Part shown: positions 20,818 through 34,631 of the stretch, one piece after another
Layout of the letters: each line of letters begins with the position of its first letter
How positions within the stretch are numbered: position 1 is the stretch's first letter
From: Gammaproteobacteria bacterium
GTDB taxonomy: Bacteria > Pseudomonadota > Gammaproteobacteria > Xanthomonadales > Wenzhouxiangellaceae
Length of the DNA: 34,998 bases
Direction: 5' to 3'
Assembly (NCBI GenBank): GCA_009908385.1
Contig: JAAAPE010000055.1
Location: 1 to 34,998, forward strand
Translations under genes and position numbers: made by a program
The notes under the pieces: generated by a model
Told to the model about the DNA's origin: nothing
Seen by the model: the letters and a program-made list of their open reading frames with translations, nothing else
Database searches by the model: none

Positions 20818-21024
20818 TTAAAAGATCTGCGTACTCAGTTGGTTTCTCGTCAGTCGGTTTTTCTCGGCAGTTGCAGTTTTGCTTCTTGCTTGATGGTAGC
20901 GATCTCGTCCTCCGGAAGCGACCCGATTGTTTCGAAATGCGTGTCTGAGCTATTCTCTTGAGCGAAAGAGGGCCGGGGCATCTCCGGTTGTTCAACCAAG
21001 GTGGCGCGGCGCGCAGAGCGGGTG

Positions 21025-23400
21025 ATGAAATATCGATTCGGAGATTTCGAGCTCGACCCGAATATCGGCGTCCTGAACGGCCCGGCGGGGCCCGTCGCAT
21101 TGCGCCGCCAGACCTTTCGCCTCCTCGAGTCGCTGTTGAGGCATGCGCCCAACCTGGTCGACCGGGACACGCTGCTTGACGAAGCCTGGGGTCGTTCGGA
21201 ACTCTCGCCCAACGTTCTGCCCCAGGCGATCAGCGAACTTCGCCACGCGCTGGGTGACAGTGCGAGCGAATCGGCCTACATCGAGACCCGGCACCGACGC
21301 GGCTATCGGATCGTGCCCGCAGTCGAGCCGATCGAATCAGGGCCATCCATCCATGGGCACGCCGGACGTCCGCCCCGACGAAGCGTGCATGTCCTCTCGA
21401 TTCTGACGCTGGTGTCGTTGCCACTCGCGCTCGTTGCCGCATGGTGGTGGCAGGGCGCGGATGAACGATGGCTGGAAAACCACTTGCTGCCTGCCGTCGA
21501 AGAACAGATCGAGACCGACGTCACCACCGCGTGGCGGCTCGTTCGCGAAGCCCGCGAACGCCTGCCCAACGACGCGCGGCTCGAGCAGCTCTGGCGCGAC
21601 CTGACGCTGCCACTGCAACTTGATAGCGAGCCCAGCGGCGTTCAGGTCGAAGTGGCGGGATATGGTGATGGCCCTGCCGACTGGCTGGCGATTGGAACGA
21701 CGCCTCTCGAGACCAGGTTGCCGCTGTCCGCGCTTCGATTCCGGATCTCCAGGCCCGGCTTTGCCAGCCGCATCGTTGCTCCCAGCGTGCTTCCTTTTCC
21801 GGAGCTGTTCCGGCTCCATCCGGCCGACGAGGTCCCAGAGGACATGGTCTTCGTGCCCCCGGGCGCCAGCAGTTATCGCTCGGAACGGCGCGATGTGCCG
21901 GGGTTCTGGATCGATCGTCACGAGGTCACCAACGAGGCGTACCTGGAATTCGTCGAGGCCGGAGGCTATGCCGATACCGCTCTCTGGCCGGATCAAATCC
22001 AAGTCGATGGACAGGTCCTCGACCGTGAGTCTTTGCTGGCGCGGATGGTCGACCAAACGGGCATGCACGGGCCGTCGACCTGGACGCTCGGGACTTTTCC
22101 GGAGGGCGACGCGAGTCATCCGGTTTCGGGCATCAGCGCCCATGAAGCGGCCGCCTACGCGAGTTGGGCGGGCAAGTCCCTGCCGACGGCTTTTCACTGG
22201 TACCGCGCCGCCGGTCTTGGCTCGGCGCAGACGCCCGTGTTTTCAGGCGTCCTCAAGACGAGCAACTTCGGACTGGACGGATCCCGACCGGTCGGAAGCG
22301 GCCTGGGACCCTACGGGACCTACGACATGGCGGGCAATGTCCGTGAGTGGACCCGAACGTCCTACGGCGCGCTGGGCTATGCGCTTGGCGCAGCCTCGAG
22401 TGATCACGCCTATCAGTTCGCCGACTGGCAGCTTTTCGAGCCGCTGAGCCGGGAACCCGGATTCGGCATGCGCCTGATCAAGCCCATCGACCCCTTTCCT
22501 CCGGAACTACTCGCGGATATCGGATTTCCCAGCGATCCCGCAGTGGCGCCGGTCGACGATGCCACCTTCGAGATCTACGCGCGCCTCTACGACTACGACG
22601 ACATGCCGCTCAGGGCCGAATTCGTTTCCATGGACGACGACCATGCCGCCTGGCGGCGGGAGAGAATCGAGTTCGACGCCGCATACGGCAACGAGCGCGT
22701 CATCCTGCAGCTCTTCATCCCGCACGACGTCGCGCCGCCCTACCAGACCGTGGTGCACTTTCCCGGCGGCGACGCGCGCCTGCTCAAGGACAGTCGGGAG
22801 GCCGGCCTCCTCCAGGTCGAACCGTTCCTGCGCACCGGACGGGCTGTGGCCTTCCCGGTCTACAAGGGCACGTTCGAGCGCGCCGGAGAGCCAGTAAGCG
22901 GACCGATCGGCGTGCGCGATTTGGTCATCCAGCAGGTCAAGGACGTCCGACGAACGCTCGACTACCTCGAATCCCGGGACGATATCGACACCGATCGCCT
23001 GGTGTTCCACGGGCTGAGCTATGGCGCGGTCCGGTCGATGTTCATCCTCGCGGTCGAGGAGCGATTTCGGGCCGCGCTGATCATCTCCACCGGCCTGATC
23101 GCGAGCCAGCACCTGCCACCCGAAATCCAGCAGGTGGACTACCTGCCCCGGGTCACCCTGCCGGTGCTGTTCGTGACCGGACGAAACGACCTGAGCGTGT
23201 CCTACGAAACGGCGCAGCGGCCCTTCTTCGAGCAATTGGGTACGCCGGACGCGCAGAAGACACACGTGGCGCTCGACTGGGGGCACCTGCCGCCGGGATA
23301 TTCGGAACTGACGCGCTTGATGATCGAGTGGACGGACCGCTGGCTGGGGCCGGTCGAGGACGGCCGGTTCGCGCTGGTCGATTCCACTACAACTCCCTGA
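21025..23400 (+). CDS. Winged-helix/TM/PEGA-like/FGE-like/alpha-beta hydrolase fusion protein
   Basis: This 791-residue protein joins modules that normally sit on separate proteins. Residues 1-97 are an OmpR/CadC-type winged helix (FGDFELDPNIGVL; LRRQTFRLLESLLRHAPNLV; AISELRHALGD; RHRRGYRIVP). Residues 121-143 are a membrane helix. A PEGA-like segment (about 200-250, EPSGVQVEV to TPLETRLPL) precedes an FGE/SUMF1 fold (about 270-487: GFWIDRHEVTNEAYLEFV; HPVSGISAHEAAAYASWAGK; GPYGTYDMAGNVREW), which ends GFGMR without the usual Cys of active FGEs. Residues 510-775 are an alpha/beta hydrolase with GLSYG (Ser665), Asp722 in TGRNDLS and His754 in WGHLPP. The start was set at the ATG that begins MKYRFGDFE; a GTG eight codons upstream is the alternative. 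By analogy with CadC it may be a membrane-bound regulator reading a periplasmic signal. Confidence 0.87.
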   Translation: MKYRFGDFELDPNIGVLNGPAGPVALRRQTFRLLESLLRHAPNLVDRDTLLDEAWGRSELSPNVLPQAISELRHALGDSASESAYIETRHRRGYRIVPAVEPIESGPSIHGHAGRPPRRSVHVLSILTLVSLPLALVAAWWWQGADERWLENHLLPAVEEQIETDVTTAWRLVREARERLPNDARLEQLWRDLTLPLQLDSEPSGVQVEVAGYGDGPADWLAIGTTPLETRLPLSALRFRISRPGFASRIVAPSVLPFPELFRLHPADEVPEDMVFVPPGASSYRSERRDVPGFWIDRHEVTNEAYLEFVEAGGYADTALWPDQIQVDGQVLDRESLLARMVDQTGMHGPSTWTLGTFPEGDASHPVSGISAHEAAAYASWAGKSLPTAFHWYRAAGLGSAQTPVFSGVLKTSNFGLDGSRPVGSGLGPYGTYDMAGNVREWTRTSYGALGYALGAASSDHAYQFADWQLFEPLSREPGFGMRLIKPIDPFPPELLADIGFPSDPAVAPVDDATFEIYARLYDYDDMPLRAEFVSMDDDHAAWRRERIEFDAAYGNERVILQLFIPHDVAPPYQTVVHFPGGDARLLKDSREAGLLQVEPFLRTGRAVAFPVYKGTFERAGEPVSGPIGVRDLVIQQVKDVRRTLDYLESRDDIDTDRLVFHGLSYGAVRSMFILAVEERFRAALIISTGLIASQHLPPEIQQVDYLPRVTLPVLFVTGRNDLSVSYETAQRPFFEQLGTPDAQKTHVALDWGHLPPGYSELTRLMIEWTDRWLGPVEDGRFALVDSTTTP

Positions 23401-25873: not shown

Positions 25874-26635
25874 TCAGGACAACTCGTCCGCCTGGGCCAG
25901 GAGATCCGCCCTGGCTGCCTCGCGGTTGTGGTCACCGGTGAGCACCGTGACCTGGCCGCCGTCGAGCGCGGCGAGGCTCTGGGCCACGACCTCCGACGCC
26001 TCCATCCACATCTCTTCAGGCACCTGGTCGCGGCGGAATCCGGCTCGGGTGACGCCTTCGCGGTCGTGGAACTCGCTGCAGGTGAATCCGGGGCAGAGGC
26101 TCTGCACCTTGATGCCGTGCTCGGCCACTTCGGCCTGCAGCCCCCTGGAGAAGAGGTTCAGGAATGCCTTGCTGCCGCAGTAGACCATGGCTCTGGGCTT
26201 TCCCGAGAAGGCGGCAGTGGACGACAGGTTGATGATCGTGCCCCTGCCGCGCTCGATCATGCCGGGCAGGGTCGCGTGCGTGAGGGCCAACGTGGCCGTG
26301 ATATGGAGATCGACTTGCCGTTGCTGGGCCGGCAGCTCGGTCTCGTTGAATTCACCGAAGGTACCGAGGCCCGCATTGTTGACGAGAAAGTCCACGGGGC
26401 CGAGTTCCTCCATGGTCCGGACGACGCGTTCCCGGTCCGCGGCGACGGTCAGGTCTGCTACGACGGGATGGATCTCCACGGCGTGCCCGAGTTCCGCTTT
26501 CAGTTCGTCGAGCCTTTCGCCCCGTCGTGCGACGGCGATGATGCGCCCGCAGCGCTCGGCGAGCTGGCGACAGAATTCGGCCCCGATGCCGGCGGAGGCG
26601 CCGGTGACGAGCGCGGTGTCTTTCGATGCTTCCAT
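25874..26635 (-). CDS. Short-chain dehydrogenase/reductase (SDR), DltE-like
   Basis: Starting at the ATG at 26635 the 253-residue product is a classical SDR. It has the cofactor motif TGASAGIG (11-18), ARRGERLDEL for binding the cofactor ribose (probably NADP, given the two Arg), NNAG (86-89), the catalytic Ser near 138, Tyr152 and Lys156 (YCGSK), and PGFTCSEFHD downstream. A longer upstream frame lacks homology. Substrate cannot be read from sequence. No strong ribosome site is visible before the chosen start. It reads away from the AT-rich gap that holds the candidate RNA gene. Confidence 0.92.
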   Translation of the reverse strand: MEASKDTALVTGASAGIGAEFCRQLAERCGRIIAVARRGERLDELKAELGHAVEIHPVVADLTVAADRERVVRTMEELGPVDFLVNNAGLGTFGEFNETELPAQQRQVDLHITATLALTHATLPGMIERGRGTIINLSSTAAFSGKPRAMVYCGSKAFLNLFSRGLQAEVAEHGIKVQSLCPGFTCSEFHDREGVTRAGFRRDQVPEEMWMEASEVVAQSLAALDGGQVTVLTGDHNREAARADLLAQADELS

Positions 26636-26950
26636 GTGATCGCTCAAACTGAAATTGCGCAGTGAGTATACCGGGGGCATAGACCGTTTCTCGCTCGGGC
26701 CTGTGCGGCGCTCCAGCAAGTAACGATATGAGGCAGGTTCCTTGGACGACCGGCTCGAGGGGAAGAGAGAGGCTGAAAAAATTGACGGGAGCGCCGCCCT
26801 AGGCGGTGGTTTGGCGATTCAGGCCTTGCCCTCTAATCAAGAATCAACAAGATATGACGCGCTCTTAAGAAAAACTTTCATGAAAACGCAACAAACCTTC
26901 AAGAACATGATTGTTATGAAATTTCTTCGGTTTTTTTTGCTCGAAAAGTC
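26636..26950. other. AT-rich non-coding region upstream of the RNA candidate
   Basis: This gap is unusually AT-rich for the window, with A- and T-tracts between about 26855 and 26950, ending in TTCTTCGGTTTTTTTTGCTC directly before a TTGACA box. Such tracts are typical of UP elements of strong promoters. Within it a hairpin at 26792-26808 (CCGCC and GGCGG around CTA) is weakly placed. No protein gene is supported. Confidence 0.5.
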
Positions 26951-26979
26951 TTGACAGCCCAGATTGATCGGCGTAAATC
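26951..26979 (+). promoter_or_regulatory. Sigma-70-type promoter of the structured RNA candidate
   Basis: A perfect -35 TTGACA at 26951-26956 is followed after 17 bases by TAAATC at 26974-26979, a weaker -10. A/T-tracts lie directly upstream of the -35, as in UP elements. The predicted start point near 26985 coincides with the 5' strand of the terminal stem described for the RNA. Confidence 0.6.
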
Positions 26980-26985
26980 TGTAGT

Positions 26986-27165
26986 CACGCGAAAGCCTCA
27001 CAAGGGTGAAGCGGCGCTAGAAGGCTCTCTCCACAGAGATCTGGCGACAAGTCTGAGAACTCTTCGAGTAGTCAGGTTTGCCGAGCATCAGGAGACCAGC
27101 GCTAGCGCTCCAATCTCAAATTATTCGCGGACAAACCCCGGCTCCAGAAGGCCGGGGTTTTGTTA
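26986..27165 (+). ncRNA. Candidate structured small RNA of about 180 nt, family unknown
   Basis: Between the promoter and a perfect terminator I can nest several perfect or near-perfect helices: CGCGAA at 26988 with TTCGCG at 27124 closes the 5' and 3' parts; GCGCTAG at 27014 with CTAGCGC at 27102 forms an inner helix; CTGG at 27041 with CCAG at 27096 lies inside that; and a long hairpin at 27048-27080 pairs CAAGTCTGAGAACTC with GAGTAGTCAGGTTTG around TTC (two G-U pairs and one two-base internal loop). Two small hairpins (26998-27009 and 27026-27039) sit between them. No plausible coding frame or tRNA signature spans it. The layout, closed by pairing ends, recalls regulatory RNAs such as 6S, but I cannot match it to a known family. 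Confidence 0.6.
27133..27162 (+). terminator. Intrinsic terminator of the structured RNA candidate
   Basis: AAACCCCGGC pairs over 10 bp with GCCGGGGTTT around an eight-base loop, and TTTTGTT follows. This is the cleanest Rho-independent terminator in the window. It lies about 190 bp before the AbgT gene, so it ends transcription of the gap, not of that gene. Confidence 0.9.
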
Positions 27166-27349: not shown

Positions 27350-28885
27350 ATGAATTCCAACAACACGCGTTTCGCGAGCTTCATCGAACGGGTCGGACAC
27401 AAGATCCCCGACCCGGTGATCATCTTTATGGCCTTCTACCCGGCGGCCTTCCTGATTACCGTACTGATGGGCGGCCACACCTTCGAGACCGCCGGGGCCG
27501 GCGGAGAGCCGCAAGCGTTCAGCATCCTGCCGATGTACGAGGCCGAGCACGTGCGCTGGATCTTCGAGAACGCGCTCCTGCAGAACTGGCTGGCCTTCGG
27601 CGGCGGCGTGCTCGGGGTGATCTTCGTGGTGATGCTGGCCATCGGCGTGGCGGAACGATCGGGACTGTTCGGCGCCCTGATCAAGAGCGCGGGCAGCCAC
27701 ATTCCCCAGGGCCTGCTGCCGCTCCTGCTGATCTTCATCGGCATCCTCAGCTCTCTGGCCACCGACGCCGGCTACCTGGTACTGATTCCCCTGGCCGGTC
27801 TGCTGTATGCCGGTCTCGGCCGCAACCCGCTCATCGGGATGGCCGCGGCATTCGCCGGCGTGTCGGCGGGTTTCAGCGCCAACCTCGTTCCCGGTCCCGT
27901 CGACGTGATCATCGGCATGAACGCGCAGGTCTTCGCCGAGTCTCAGGGCGTCCCCTTCACCACCGCAGACGGCGAGCCTTTGAATCCAGCGACCATGCAC
28001 TGGCGCTTCATCATCGCCTCGACCTTCGTGCTGAGCGCGGCCGGGTACTGGGTGACCCGCCGATTTGTCGAGCCGCGGCTCGACGGCCAGTCCTTCGAGG
28101 TACCCGCGGACATCAATCCGGGCGAGTTTGCGCTGTCCGATCCGGAGCGGCGCGGCCTGAAAGGCGCACTGGTCGGCACGCTGGTGGCTGCGGCGATGAT
28201 CGTGGGCCTGGCCCTGGGGCCGCTCGGTGCCTACACCGACGAGAGTGGCACCGTCGTCCGGCCCTACATGGACAACATCATCCTGCTGATTTCGCTGTTC
28301 TTCGTCGTCACCGGCGTGTTCTTCGGTGTGGCGTCCGGAAAGTTCAGGTCGGTCGGCGATACGGTCCAGGCGATGGTCGGGCAGATGAACACCATGGGCT
28401 ATATCCTGGTGCTGACTTTCTTCTGCTACAACTTCCTCGGCCTGCTCAGCTACAGCGGGCTCGGTTCCTACATCACCTATCTGGGCGCCGAGACCCTGAT
28501 GGCGCTGGGCCTGCAGCAATTTCCGATTCTGCTGCTGATCGGCTTCGTGCTGACCACCGCCGTCATCAATATCTTCATCGGCGGACTGACCTCGAAGTGG
28601 ATGCTGCTCGGGCCGATCTTCGTGCCGATGCTCTACTTCGTGAACCCGGCCATGACGCCGGACCTGGTGGCCGCCGCTTATCGCGTGGCAGATTCATCGA
28701 CTAACATCGTTACCCCGATGATGACCTACGCCGGCGTGATCCTGGCGTTCATGCGCAAGTACAAGCCGGGCATGACCTTCGGCGACATGCTGCTGATCAT
28801 GGTGCCCTATTCGATCACTTTCCTGGTGATCTGGACGGCGCTGCTGATCGCATTCTTCGCAACCGGCATTCCCCTCTCGCTGTGA
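27350..28885 (+). CDS. AbgT-family transporter (p-aminobenzoyl-glutamate/antimetabolite type)
   Basis: The 511-residue protein follows AbgT/MtrF throughout: RVGHKIPDPVIIFMAFYPAA at the start, FGGGVLGVIFVVMLAIGVAE, ERSGLFGALIKSAGSHIPQG, SSLATDAGYLVLIPLAGLLY, AFAGVSAGFSANLVPGPVDV and DSSTNIVTPMMTYAGVILAF near the end. Family members either import p-aminobenzoyl-glutamate, a folate breakdown product, or export sulfonamides by proton antiport; sequence alone does not decide which. It heads an operon with an FAD oxidoreductase (4-bp gap) and a CbiM-like membrane protein (18-bp gap). A remnant of an M20 amidohydrolase, the type of enzyme that often partners AbgT, lies about 22 kb away but is not functionally linked here. 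Confidence 0.93.
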   Translation: MNSNNTRFASFIERVGHKIPDPVIIFMAFYPAAFLITVLMGGHTFETAGAGGEPQAFSILPMYEAEHVRWIFENALLQNWLAFGGGVLGVIFVVMLAIGVAERSGLFGALIKSAGSHIPQGLLPLLLIFIGILSSLATDAGYLVLIPLAGLLYAGLGRNPLIGMAAAFAGVSAGFSANLVPGPVDVIIGMNAQVFAESQGVPFTTADGEPLNPATMHWRFIIASTFVLSAAGYWVTRRFVEPRLDGQSFEVPADINPGEFALSDPERRGLKGALVGTLVAAAMIVGLALGPLGAYTDESGTVVRPYMDNIILLISLFFVVTGVFFGVASGKFRSVGDTVQAMVGQMNTMGYILVLTFFCYNFLGLLSYSGLGSYITYLGAETLMALGLQQFPILLLIGFVLTTAVINIFIGGLTSKWMLLGPIFVPMLYFVNPAMTPDLVAAAYRVADSSTNIVTPMMTYAGVILAFMRKYKPGMTFGDMLLIMVPYSITFLVIWTALLIAFFATGIPLSL

Positions 28886-30725: not shown

Positions 30726-31631
30726 TCAGCGCTCGCGGTGCTTCCAGCGGTCGTGAAACCAGTAGTACTGCTCAGGGCAATGTCGAATCGCCTCGCCTAG
30801 CGCCTCGTTCATCTGCTGGGCGACGTGGACCCGCATCGCGTCGCGGTCTTCTCTTGACTCCAACGGGATCGGGTCGATGTCGACGACATGCCGGCCGCCG
30901 GCGACTCGCCGGCCCGCCATGCGGAACAGCGAGAGACCGTGCTTCTCGACCAGGGCCCCGGGCAGCGGTAGCGTGTAGGCGGGTCGTCCCAGGAAGTCGA
31001 CCCGCAGCTTCTGGTCCGATGAGTAGTGGTCGGCGACCATGACCATGACGCGACCAGCGCGAATCGCCTGCAGCATGTGGCGGGGCGCCGTGCGGCCCTT
31101 CGAGATGAACGTCACCGCGTCGCCGGGCAGCTCGAGGATCAGGCGATCGACGCCGGGATTGGTCTGCTTTCCGACCAGCAAGGCCGGCTCGAGGCCGGCG
31201 TCGGCGAGTGCGGCGACGTAGAGCGCCCAGGCGCCGAGGTGGCCGGTGACCAGCGCCGCGCTCTGCCCCTCGTCCCTGAGTTGGTGCAGGCGTCCGAGTC
31301 CGCGAAACTCCACGATGTCGCCGACACGGTCCCGGTCGCCGCCGGGAAACCGGAGGAATTCCGCCACGGTCCGTCCGAAGTTCTCGGTGGAGGCCCGGCC
31401 GAGGCGTTTCCGCTCGTCTTCGGCGAGATCGGGGAAGGCGATCGCGAGGTTGTCGAGAATCAACCCGCGGCGCACGCGAATCATCCAGGCAACTCGGCCG
31501 ATGAGACCGCCGAGTCCCAGCGCCGTGCGGCGGGGCAGGACGTGGAGCGCCATGGAGATCGCCCTCAAAGCCCCCACCTCGAGGGCGTGACGGGCGCGAT
31601 AGGCAACGGAGCGCTCTGGGTCGGCACTCAT
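30726..31631 (-). CDS. Lipid A-type acyltransferase (LpxL/HtrB-like) lacking the catalytic Glu
   Basis: The 301-residue product (ATG at 31631; the longer frame would overlap the next gene) has the lysophospholipid/lipid A acyltransferase pattern: an N-terminal hydrophobic helix, RRGLILDNLAIAFPDLAEDE, a STENFGRTVAEFLRFP segment, then the catalytic HX4E region and a VMVMVADHYSSDQKLRVDFL segment, and QYYWFHDRWKHRER at the end. These enzymes add secondary acyl chains to lipid A at the inner membrane. The catalytic motif here reads VTGHLGAWAL, with His131 but Ala136 in place of the family's Glu/Asp. The codon is GCG where GAG would be expected, so either the enzyme is inactive or repurposed, or a base is wrong. 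It converges on the CbiM-like gene. Confidence 0.87.
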   Translation of the reverse strand: MSADPERSVAYRARHALEVGALRAISMALHVLPRRTALGLGGLIGRVAWMIRVRRGLILDNLAIAFPDLAEDERKRLGRASTENFGRTVAEFLRFPGGDRDRVGDIVEFRGLGRLHQLRDEGQSAALVTGHLGAWALYVAALADAGLEPALLVGKQTNPGVDRLILELPGDAVTFISKGRTAPRHMLQAIRAGRVMVMVADHYSSDQKLRVDFLGRPAYTLPLPGALVEKHGLSLFRMAGRRVAGGRHVVDIDPIPLESREDRDAMRVHVAQQMNEALGEAIRHCPEQYYWFHDRWKHRER

Positions 31632-33215: not shown

Positions 33216-34631
33216 GTGACCGAGCAAGCCGCCACGCCGCCGTCCCGGCTGACGCCGTTCTTCCTCGCCCTGGGTCCGCTGGCCGCGCTGGCCGTCGGCG
33301 GGCTCGGCCTTACGGCCTGGGGATTGCCGGCCCCGGCCGCCGTCGTCGCCGCCGTGACGGCCTGGTGCGCGGTATGGTGGTTGACCGAGCCCGTCCCGAT
33401 CCCGGTCACCTCGTTGCTGCCGATGGCGCTCCTGCCCCTGGGCGGGGCATTGACGCCCACGCAGGTGGCGCAGAGCTACGGCTCTCCGTTGATCCTGCTG
33501 CTGATGGGCGGGTTCATGCTGTCGGGTGCGCTGGCCAAGTCCGGGGCGCATCGCCGACTCGCGCTGGCGATGATCCGTGCCTGCGCGAGGCTGGGCCAGC
33601 GCGGCCTGGTGCTGGGCTTCATGCTGGCGGCGGCTTTCCTGTCGATGTGGATCTCGAACACCGCGACCACGCTGATGCTGCTGCCGGTCGCGCTGGCCGT
33701 CCTCGAAGACAAGCGTTTCGTGCCGCTGACCATCCCGCTGCTGCTGGGCATCGCCTACTCCGCCAGCCTGGGCGGGACGGGGACGCCGATCGGCACGCCG
33801 CCGAACCTGGTCTACATGCAGGTGGTCCAGGACCAGTTCGGAACGACCACCTCTTTCCCGCTGTGGATGAGCTGGGGTGTGCCCGTGGTCGTCCTGGTGT
33901 TGCCGTTGATGTTCCTTTGGCTGACGCGCAGCGTCACGTCGGGCGCGTTGCCGGAGCTCGAACGCCCGGGCGCCTGGACGACCGCGGAAAAGCGCGTGAT
34001 GGGCGTGTTTGCCGTCACCGCCGGGCTCTGGATGACCCGGACCGCTCCGTTCGGCGGCTGGCAGGCGGCGCTCGACCTGCCCTATGCCAACGACGCTGCG
34101 GTGGCCATGCTTGCGGTAGTTGCCCTGTGCTGCATACCGGATGGCAAGAAGGACGGCCGTGGTGGGCGGTTGCTCGACTGGGAAACCGCCGGCAGCATTC
34201 CCTGGGGCGTGCTGATCCTGTTCGCCGGCGGCATCACGATCGCGCGAGGCTTCATGGAGACGGGGCTCAGCGACGTCCTGGCGACCCAGCTGACCGCGCT
34301 CGCCACCCTGCCGCCCTGGCTGATGGTGCTGTGCATCGCCCTGGGCGTGACTTTCCTGACCGAAATGACCAGCAATACCGCGACCGGCTCGCTGCTGATG
34401 CCGGTGCTCGCGGCGACCGCGATCGCCTCCGATCTGCCGCCCGAGCTGCTGATGGTGCCGGCGGCGATCAGCGCATCCTGCGCCTTCATGCTGCCGGTGG
34501 CGACCGCCCCCAATGCCGTGATCTACGGCTCGGGCCGGGTGCCGATCCGGCGCATGGCCGGCGAGGGTTTCGTGGTCAACCTGATCGCGGCCGTGGTGAT
34601 CACGGGGGTCGTCATGCTGCGCTTTGGCTGA
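33216..34631 (+). CDS. DASS/SLC13-family anion symporter
   Basis: The 471-residue protein starts at GTG (an ATG five bases upstream is out of frame). It has about 12 membrane segments and the two SNT signatures of the divalent anion:Na+ symporter family: SNTATTLMLLP in the first half and SNTATGSLLMPVL in the second, plus the TGTPIGTPPNLVYM loop and FLTEMTSNTATG. An early motif TEPVPIPVTSLLPMALLPL is also typical. Family members carry dicarboxylates, citrate or sulfate with sodium ions; the substrate cannot be read here. Sodium-coupled transport would suit a saline habitat, which is inference. It is 111 bp downstream of the betaine methyltransferase and may share its transcript. Confidence 0.92.
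   Translation: MTEQAATPPSRLTPFFLALGPLAALAVGGLGLTAWGLPAPAAVVAAVTAWCAVWWLTEPVPIPVTSLLPMALLPLGGALTPTQVAQSYGSPLILLLMGGFMLSGALAKSGAHRRLALAMIRACARLGQRGLVLGFMLAAAFLSMWISNTATTLMLLPVALAVLEDKRFVPLTIPLLLGIAYSASLGGTGTPIGTPPNLVYMQVVQDQFGTTTSFPLWMSWGVPVVVLVLPLMFLWLTRSVTSGALPELERPGAWTTAEKRVMGVFAVTAGLWMTRTAPFGGWQAALDLPYANDAAVAMLAVVALCCIPDGKKDGRGGRLLDWETAGSIPWGVLILFAGGITIARGFMETGLSDVLATQLTALATLPPWLMVLCIALGVTFLTEMTSNTATGSLLMPVLAATAIASDLPPELLMVPAAISASCAFMLPVATAPNAVIYGSGRVPIRRMAGEGFVVNLIAAVVITGVVMLRFG

Follow-up and report, generated by a model that had tools for sequence, protein, structure and literature searches.

A predicted structured RNA gene found in two genera of Wenzhouxiangellaceae represents a new candidate family of bacterial small RNAs

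The gap between an SDR reading frame (25874-26719, minus strand) and the gene of an AbgT transporter (27350-28885, plus strand) almost certainly harbors a genuine, independent RNA gene. It was studied within a window (the whole stretch of DNA analysed, 34,998 nucleotides) by comparison with other genomes; here, G000 denotes the window's own genome, other G-numbers the compared genomes, and g1 and g6 two genera. The original prediction had placed a structured regulatory RNA between these two genes. The structured RNA proved to be real, since the comparison reveals a conserved fold together with promoter-like and terminator sequences, whereas "regulatory" is a role that we infer. The case for an RNA gene is built on covariation and on the pattern of conservation and not on folding energy. 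The RNA family is new and has clear comparative support; the predicted transcript is ordinary in kind, namely a bacterial small RNA. Its features are compiled in Table 1.

Table 1. Positions of the candidate RNA, its structural elements and the adjacent signals in the window
Feature	Position	Strand	Basis and remarks
A/T-rich upstream region, moderately conserved; candidate UP-element or regulator site	26876..26950	+	blastn, identity bins
-35 box TTGACA	26951..26956	+	direct reading; homologues
-10 box TAAATC	26974..26979	+	direct reading; homologues; 17-nt spacer from -35
Predicted RNA, about 178 nt, both ends inferred	26987..27164	+	identity bins; homologues in 9 of 43 family genomes
P1 closing helix	26988-26993/27124-27129	+	every cell of its 6 pairs paired (100%, 9 sequences); 1 pair changed on both sides
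P2 hairpin, loop AAGG at 27002-27005	26995..27012	+	6 of 6 pairs invariant in 9 sequences
P3 rod	27013..27109	+	13 pairs changed on both sides
P3 lower rod	27013-27020/27102-27109	+	consensus fold
P3 next helix	27024-27032/27091-27100	+	consensus fold
P3 short helix	27036-27037/27088-27089	+	consensus fold
P3 apical helix	27045-27054/27074-27083	+	consensus fold
J3/1 junction strand AATCTCAAATTAT, unpaired except last base	27112..27124	+	same 13 bases in all nine copies
Intrinsic terminator, 10-bp stem 27133-27142/27151-27160, then tail TTTTGTTAT	27130..27165	+	direct reading; 3 main-stem pairs changed on both sides

Boundaries and Promoter-Like Elements

Mean pairwise identity per 20-base bin amounts to 0.81-0.92 over positions 26985-27164, with the exception of the apical hairpin (0.43 and 0.47). 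It is 0.56-0.57 over 26945-26984, 0.39-0.54 over 26865-26944 and 0.14-0.36 farther upstream (26685-26844); past 27164 it is 0.42 and drops to 0.12. The conservation maximum extends from the predicted start to the terminator, and blastn homology upstream of the RNA starts at 26876 (G063) and 26883 (G024).

That the RNA possesses its own promoter and terminator, as originally claimed, is borne out by the comparison and not by the consensus promoter scan. The TTGACA -35 box and the A/T-rich upstream tract are present as letters, and TTGAC is retained in all nine homologues. In eight of them it is followed, after 17 or 18 bases, by a -10 box reading TAAATC, TACAAC, TATAAC, TATAAG or TAAAAC; the exception is G034, where no -10 box beginning with TA is found. 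The -10 box in the window matches the consensus in three of six letters, and a generic sigma-70 consensus promoter scan of the window did not report the promoter site of the RNA, so that the promoter call derives from conservation. At the other end, the 10-bp terminator with its T-run was found as described. It could be aligned in all nine homologues, and three pairs of its main stem have changed on both sides; the U tail of the RNA (TTTTGTTAT) is short and broken. At one homologous locus (L040, in G061), the 3′ arm of the terminator and the tail (AGACCGGGGCTTTGTT) occur a second time a few tens of bases farther on, which looks like a duplication of the terminator end.

Secondary Structure and Covariation

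The consensus fold of the nine aligned transcripts is a three-way junction, composed of P1, P2 and the P3 rod with its internal loops and variable apex, and followed by the terminator. Pairing is possible in 96.3% of 465 cells. A check for covarying changes in homologous copies, suggested along with the original prediction, revealed that the helices are kept through compensatory changes, 18 of 52 pairs having changed on both sides. None of 500 shuffles, which ignore the relatedness among the nine sequences, reached any of five covariation measures; sliding the pairing partners lowered pairing to 38-49%, a control over which the fold is favoured because it was derived from the same alignment. 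The rod without its apical helix retains 6 of 17 pairs changed on both sides, a figure that again none of 500 shuffles attained. Invariant pairs are distributed unevenly: besides all six of P2, they make up five of six in P1, five of eight in the next helix, three of seven in the lower rod and two of nine in the apical helix. Because the pairs of P2 never vary, covariation neither supports nor opposes this hairpin, the loop of which is GAGG in G027 and AAGG in all other copies. In G034, G063 and G065, two non-standard cells of the rod are G-A followed by A-G, an arrangement that can form sheared pairs. The mean unpaired probability of J3/1 is 0.94 in G000 and ranges from 0.60 to 0.94 across the nine copies.

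Three of the four helices originally proposed, namely 26988/27124, 27014/27102 and the apical hairpin, are part of the consensus fold. The fourth, 27041/27096 (CTGG/CCAG), falls outside it: in the nine homologues, 97.2% of its cells pair and none of its pairs has changed on both sides. It competes with consensus pairs 27024-27026/27098-27100, three pairs that likewise never vary. P2 had been absent from the helices listed.

With the terminator, the MFE is -75.4 (z -4.54), and none of 200 shuffles was as low. Without it, the core of G000 yields a z of -1.92 (8 of 200 shuffles as low) and the nine homologues range from -0.76 to -3.13; folding energy is then at best mildly unusual in most copies. 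Several single-sequence predictions lose P1, with or without P2, as in G000 extended by eight bases past the terminator and in G024 with flanking sequence. An alternative fold built on local hairpins (fold B) was rejected: changes on both sides occur in 2 of its 11 pairs, a level also reached in 156 of 500 shuffles, and it is mismatched in G061. When forced, fold B has the better energy in G034, G063 and G011, by 3.4-5.3 kcal/mol over the rod, and the worse one in the other six copies. A covariance model (R2) representing fold B, made from a poorer alignment, was left out of the results.

Distribution and Non-Coding Character

A DNA search of 61 genomes brought up four strongly related sequences, with identities to the window of 91, 87, 80 and 71% in the matched portion. 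Together with the window's own sequence, they were used to build a first covariance model (R1) from five copies. Covariance model matches were obtained in 9 of 43 Wenzhouxiangellaceae genomes, one in each at E<=0.01, with a worst E of 9.8e-26. Five of the nine carriers are those that built the model and four were newly found; by genus, they comprise 4 of 30 g1 genomes, 5 of 6 g6 genomes and none of 7 from five other genera. The same nine were the only carriers among 398 order-level genomes (family included), and only the window's own copy was matched among 369 class-level genomes; in both sets, 7-8 candidates per genome were scored, so distant relatives may have been missed. A permissive model (R3), applied to the 34 family genomes in which R1 had found nothing and, as control, to three positives, gave matches at E<=1 in 14 of the 34. 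Among the best five of these 14, which were aligned (two were also read), four are G+C-rich terminators with little else; the fifth, in G022 (E 0.1), covers only model positions 49-106. None of the five was counted as a homologue. An exact two-motif scan of an 84,980-species collection, from which records very near the window's genome are possibly excluded, returned five records (Wenzhouxiangella sp. XN79A, Wenzhouxiangella sp. 15190, a Wenzhouxiangellaceae MAG, a Lysobacterales MAG and an uncultured proteobacterium MAG). These are taken to be genomes already among the nine carriers.

The earlier statement that no protein frame fits the RNA holds in the homologues. The nine cores measure 145, 145, 146, 146, 148, 146, 126, 130 and 128 nt and thus fall into all three modulo-3 classes, with some pairs of lengths differing by multiples of three. 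Stops occur in all three forward frames in six of the nine cores, while one or two frames run through without a stop in G000, G011 and G062. In view of lengths and stops, the window's 113-aa frame that overlaps the RNA is most likely an accident.

Genomic Context and Evolutionary History

The genes adjoining the RNA differ between genomes, for which reason it most likely acts in trans. Downstream lie AbgT on the same strand in G000, an ATP-grasp protein in G011 and TPMT in G062 and G061 (with MoaE upstream); genes on the opposite strand encode a hydrolase (G024), a methyltransferase (G034), SecF (G065, which has an EAL regulator upstream) and an AAA/HTH_8 regulator (G027, which has a dehydrogenase upstream). 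In these eight of nine genomes the nearest Pfam-matched downstream gene is found within about 1 kb. In G063 it is an anion transporter gene 1.8 kb away and reversed. A cis-acting leader or riboswitch-terminator controlling the downstream gene, here AbgT, would accord with the shared strand of RNA and AbgT and with the resemblance of a three-way junction and invariant core directly before a terminator to an aptamer with its expression platform. Such a leader is nevertheless highly improbable, given that the downstream gene changes from one neighbourhood to the next and is reversed in four of the eight genomes where a Pfam match lies no more than about 1 kb downstream, that AbgT relatives in G017, G026, G013 (where the match reaches the contig end on the far side) and G034 match only the AbgT part of the query, and that no antiterminator pairing stood out among the forced and alternative folds computed. 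Equally hard to credit is an RNA cassette that is mobile or passed on horizontally and persists chiefly through its own spread. The changing neighbours, the patchy occurrence in g1 (4 of 30 genomes) and the conflict between RNA and rpoB trees described below speak for it; yet each genome contains a single match at E<=0.01, phage and plasmid collections gave no blastn match, viral contigs gave no exact-pattern match, and no terminal repeats were seen when the ends were compared by eye. Certain neighbours are moreover shared: a DUF808 gene occurs near the RNA in G000 and G024, with pieces on the RNA's contig and other pieces on other contigs in G011, and the same anion transporter occurs near the RNA in G000, G034 and G063. 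Slow local rearrangement is favoured by these shared neighbours. In G003, DUF808 and a relative of window 30726-31598 are about 7.6 kb apart, without an RNA copy between them.

For a tree of rpoB, 30 genomes were queried, of which G016 gave no match and G064 no usable reading; in the resulting tree of 28 (G031 partial), obtained by a quick method, the RNA is present in five of five g6 rows and in four of six rows of one g1 clade. G064, the sixth g6 genome, is RNA-negative and 83% complete, and has no place on this tree. Covariance model searches found no RNA in G003 and G018, relatives of the carriers that are both about 99% complete. In contrast to the rpoB tree, a tree of the RNA, built from 188 columns, is at odds with a g1 clade: uniting the four g1 copies is rejected (p-AU 0.0057). 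Here G027, a long branch, groups with G061 and G062, all three having a short apex. Both exchange between genera and sorting of two old forms could account for the conflict.

Two transport genes of the window show affinities of their own. At the DNA level, the AbgT gene (27350-28885) is closer to the g6 copy of G034 (82%) than to the own-genus copies of G017, G026 and G013 (78%). The protein of the anion transporter (CitMHS/Na_sulph_symp, window 33216-34631; L042, L043) is 87-88% identical between the window and G034 or G063, and 87% identical between G034 and G063. As the window belongs to a different genus from G034 and G063, exchange of the transporter between genera is possible, judging from this level of identity. 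Another part of the window, 21001-23400 on the plus strand, contains a 799-aa frame with the unusual combination of Trans_reg_C (OmpR-type), FGE-sulfatase and peptidase S9 (E 2e-5).

Relation to Known RNAs and Possible Function

The fold had originally been left without a known family, and the search of Rfam agrees: Rfam 15 gave no match in the window at the gathering cut-off, and the matches below it, taken to E 10 for the window stretch and eight homologous loci, were weak and inconsistent, with none plausible. Weak rnk-leader matches rest on the terminator stem, and the strand matched by two sucA-II hits (E 6-8) is not that of the RNA. In titles and listings, a literature search found no small-RNA work on Wenzhouxiangella or Wenzhouxiangellaceae. 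Among established systems, CsrB/RsmZ RNAs, defined by repeated GGA in hairpin loops, may share the principle of a folded RNA titrating a protein, but the window's copy contains two GGA, neither of them in a hairpin loop. In retron msr-msd RNAs, too, the two ends pair in a closing helix and there is a long rod; the candidate differs in having its own terminator, and no reverse transcriptase was present among the flanking proteins scanned.

What is conserved in the nine copies bears on how the RNA may work. The paired letters of P2 and the strand J3/1 are invariant while the rod covaries, which suggests a core that is recognised by a protein. A trans-acting RNA of Wenzhouxiangellaceae with a putative protein partner of this kind is the reading that we tentatively prefer, without regarding it as probable. 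RNA polymerase with the housekeeping sigma factor would start near position 26987 and produce a transcript of about 178 nt, whose 5′ end would be held in P1. A partner, most likely a protein, would recognise the shape of the constant core, formed by the P2 hairpin and the 13-nt J3/1, and the covarying rod P3 would be a structural handle. By titrating or steering the core-binding protein, the RNA would follow the principle of 6S RNA and CsrB; alternatively, the protein would carry the RNA while J3/1 is offered for pairing. The invariant letters of a stem are explained by a shape-binding partner and not by a pairing seed alone. Also counted for protein recognition is the finding that a perfect 11-base complement of J3/1 exists only at the RNA's own locus in six of the nine genomes. 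The invariance of the core may in part reflect short divergence among nine sequences.

Instead of presenting a shape, the RNA could act by base pairing in trans with the help of Hfq or ProQ, the unpaired strand AAUCUCAAAUUAU serving as a seed near translation starts, where its UCUC can meet Shine-Dalgarno sequences containing GAG. This possibility comes only slightly behind protein recognition and is likewise less than probable. The candidate shares with such small RNAs its intergenic position, promoter-like elements, an intrinsic terminator and an accessible conserved strand, J3/1 being largely unpaired and identical in all nine copies, and Hfq is encoded in all 11 genomes searched (nine carriers and two non-carriers). 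Over the nine genomes, TTTGAGA occurs 3-12 bases before ATG 92 times, versus 48 times for the reversed pattern, in which ATG becomes GTA (raw sites, counted without gene or orthology annotation); it is in excess in seven of the nine, and the count is 81 versus 48 after removal of 11 copies of one repeat string in G034. This excess, largest in G027 (18 versus 2) and G065 (22 versus 8), leans towards pairing, but it is uneven, with 1 versus 7 in G000, 2 versus 2 in G063 and 10 versus 9 in G024. Further points against pairing are the 5′ end held in P1, the invariance of P2 despite its being a stem, and the short, broken U tail. Nor is there a long complement of J3/1 common to all carriers: a perfect 11-base complement outside the RNA's own locus was detected in only three of nine genomes by a search that misses shorter seeds or seeds with G-U pairs. 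A second, divergent 6S-type RNA imitating an open promoter is very unlikely. Similarity to 6S RNA (RF00013) is seen in a size near 180 nt, a long rod closed at its base, a conserved unpaired strand and the trans action expected. However, 6S RNA is a rod with a central bubble, whereas the core of the candidate is branched, with a three-way junction and an invariant side hairpin in place of a simple bubble; neither the window stretch nor the eight homologous loci gave a 6S match up to E 10, and the genome has a clear 6S RNA of its own (92 bits) elsewhere (G000:C91:7819-8005).

To return to protein recognition, a more far-reaching version would make the candidate the founder of a new type of ribonucleoprotein regulator. 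In this version, the RNA is specific to the lineage, has passed between genera and has been lost from close relatives, and its invariant three-way-junction core binds and controls a protein outside the known 6S and CsrA systems. We consider this unlikely as a whole. A new protein partner, if there is one, would extend the short list of known RNA-titrated regulators. The invariant core and the absence of the RNA from G003 and G018 make its function testable, for they offer a contrast of presence and absence, a defined strand and a defined fold.

A separate observation concerns the repeat string in G034. The string TTTGAGAGGTCATG accounts for 11 of the 14 TTTGAGA sites listed for this genome and is found on many contigs, twice at the same coordinates 48-61 and three times at 1366-1379. 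It is perhaps an insertion sequence at which the assembly breaks.
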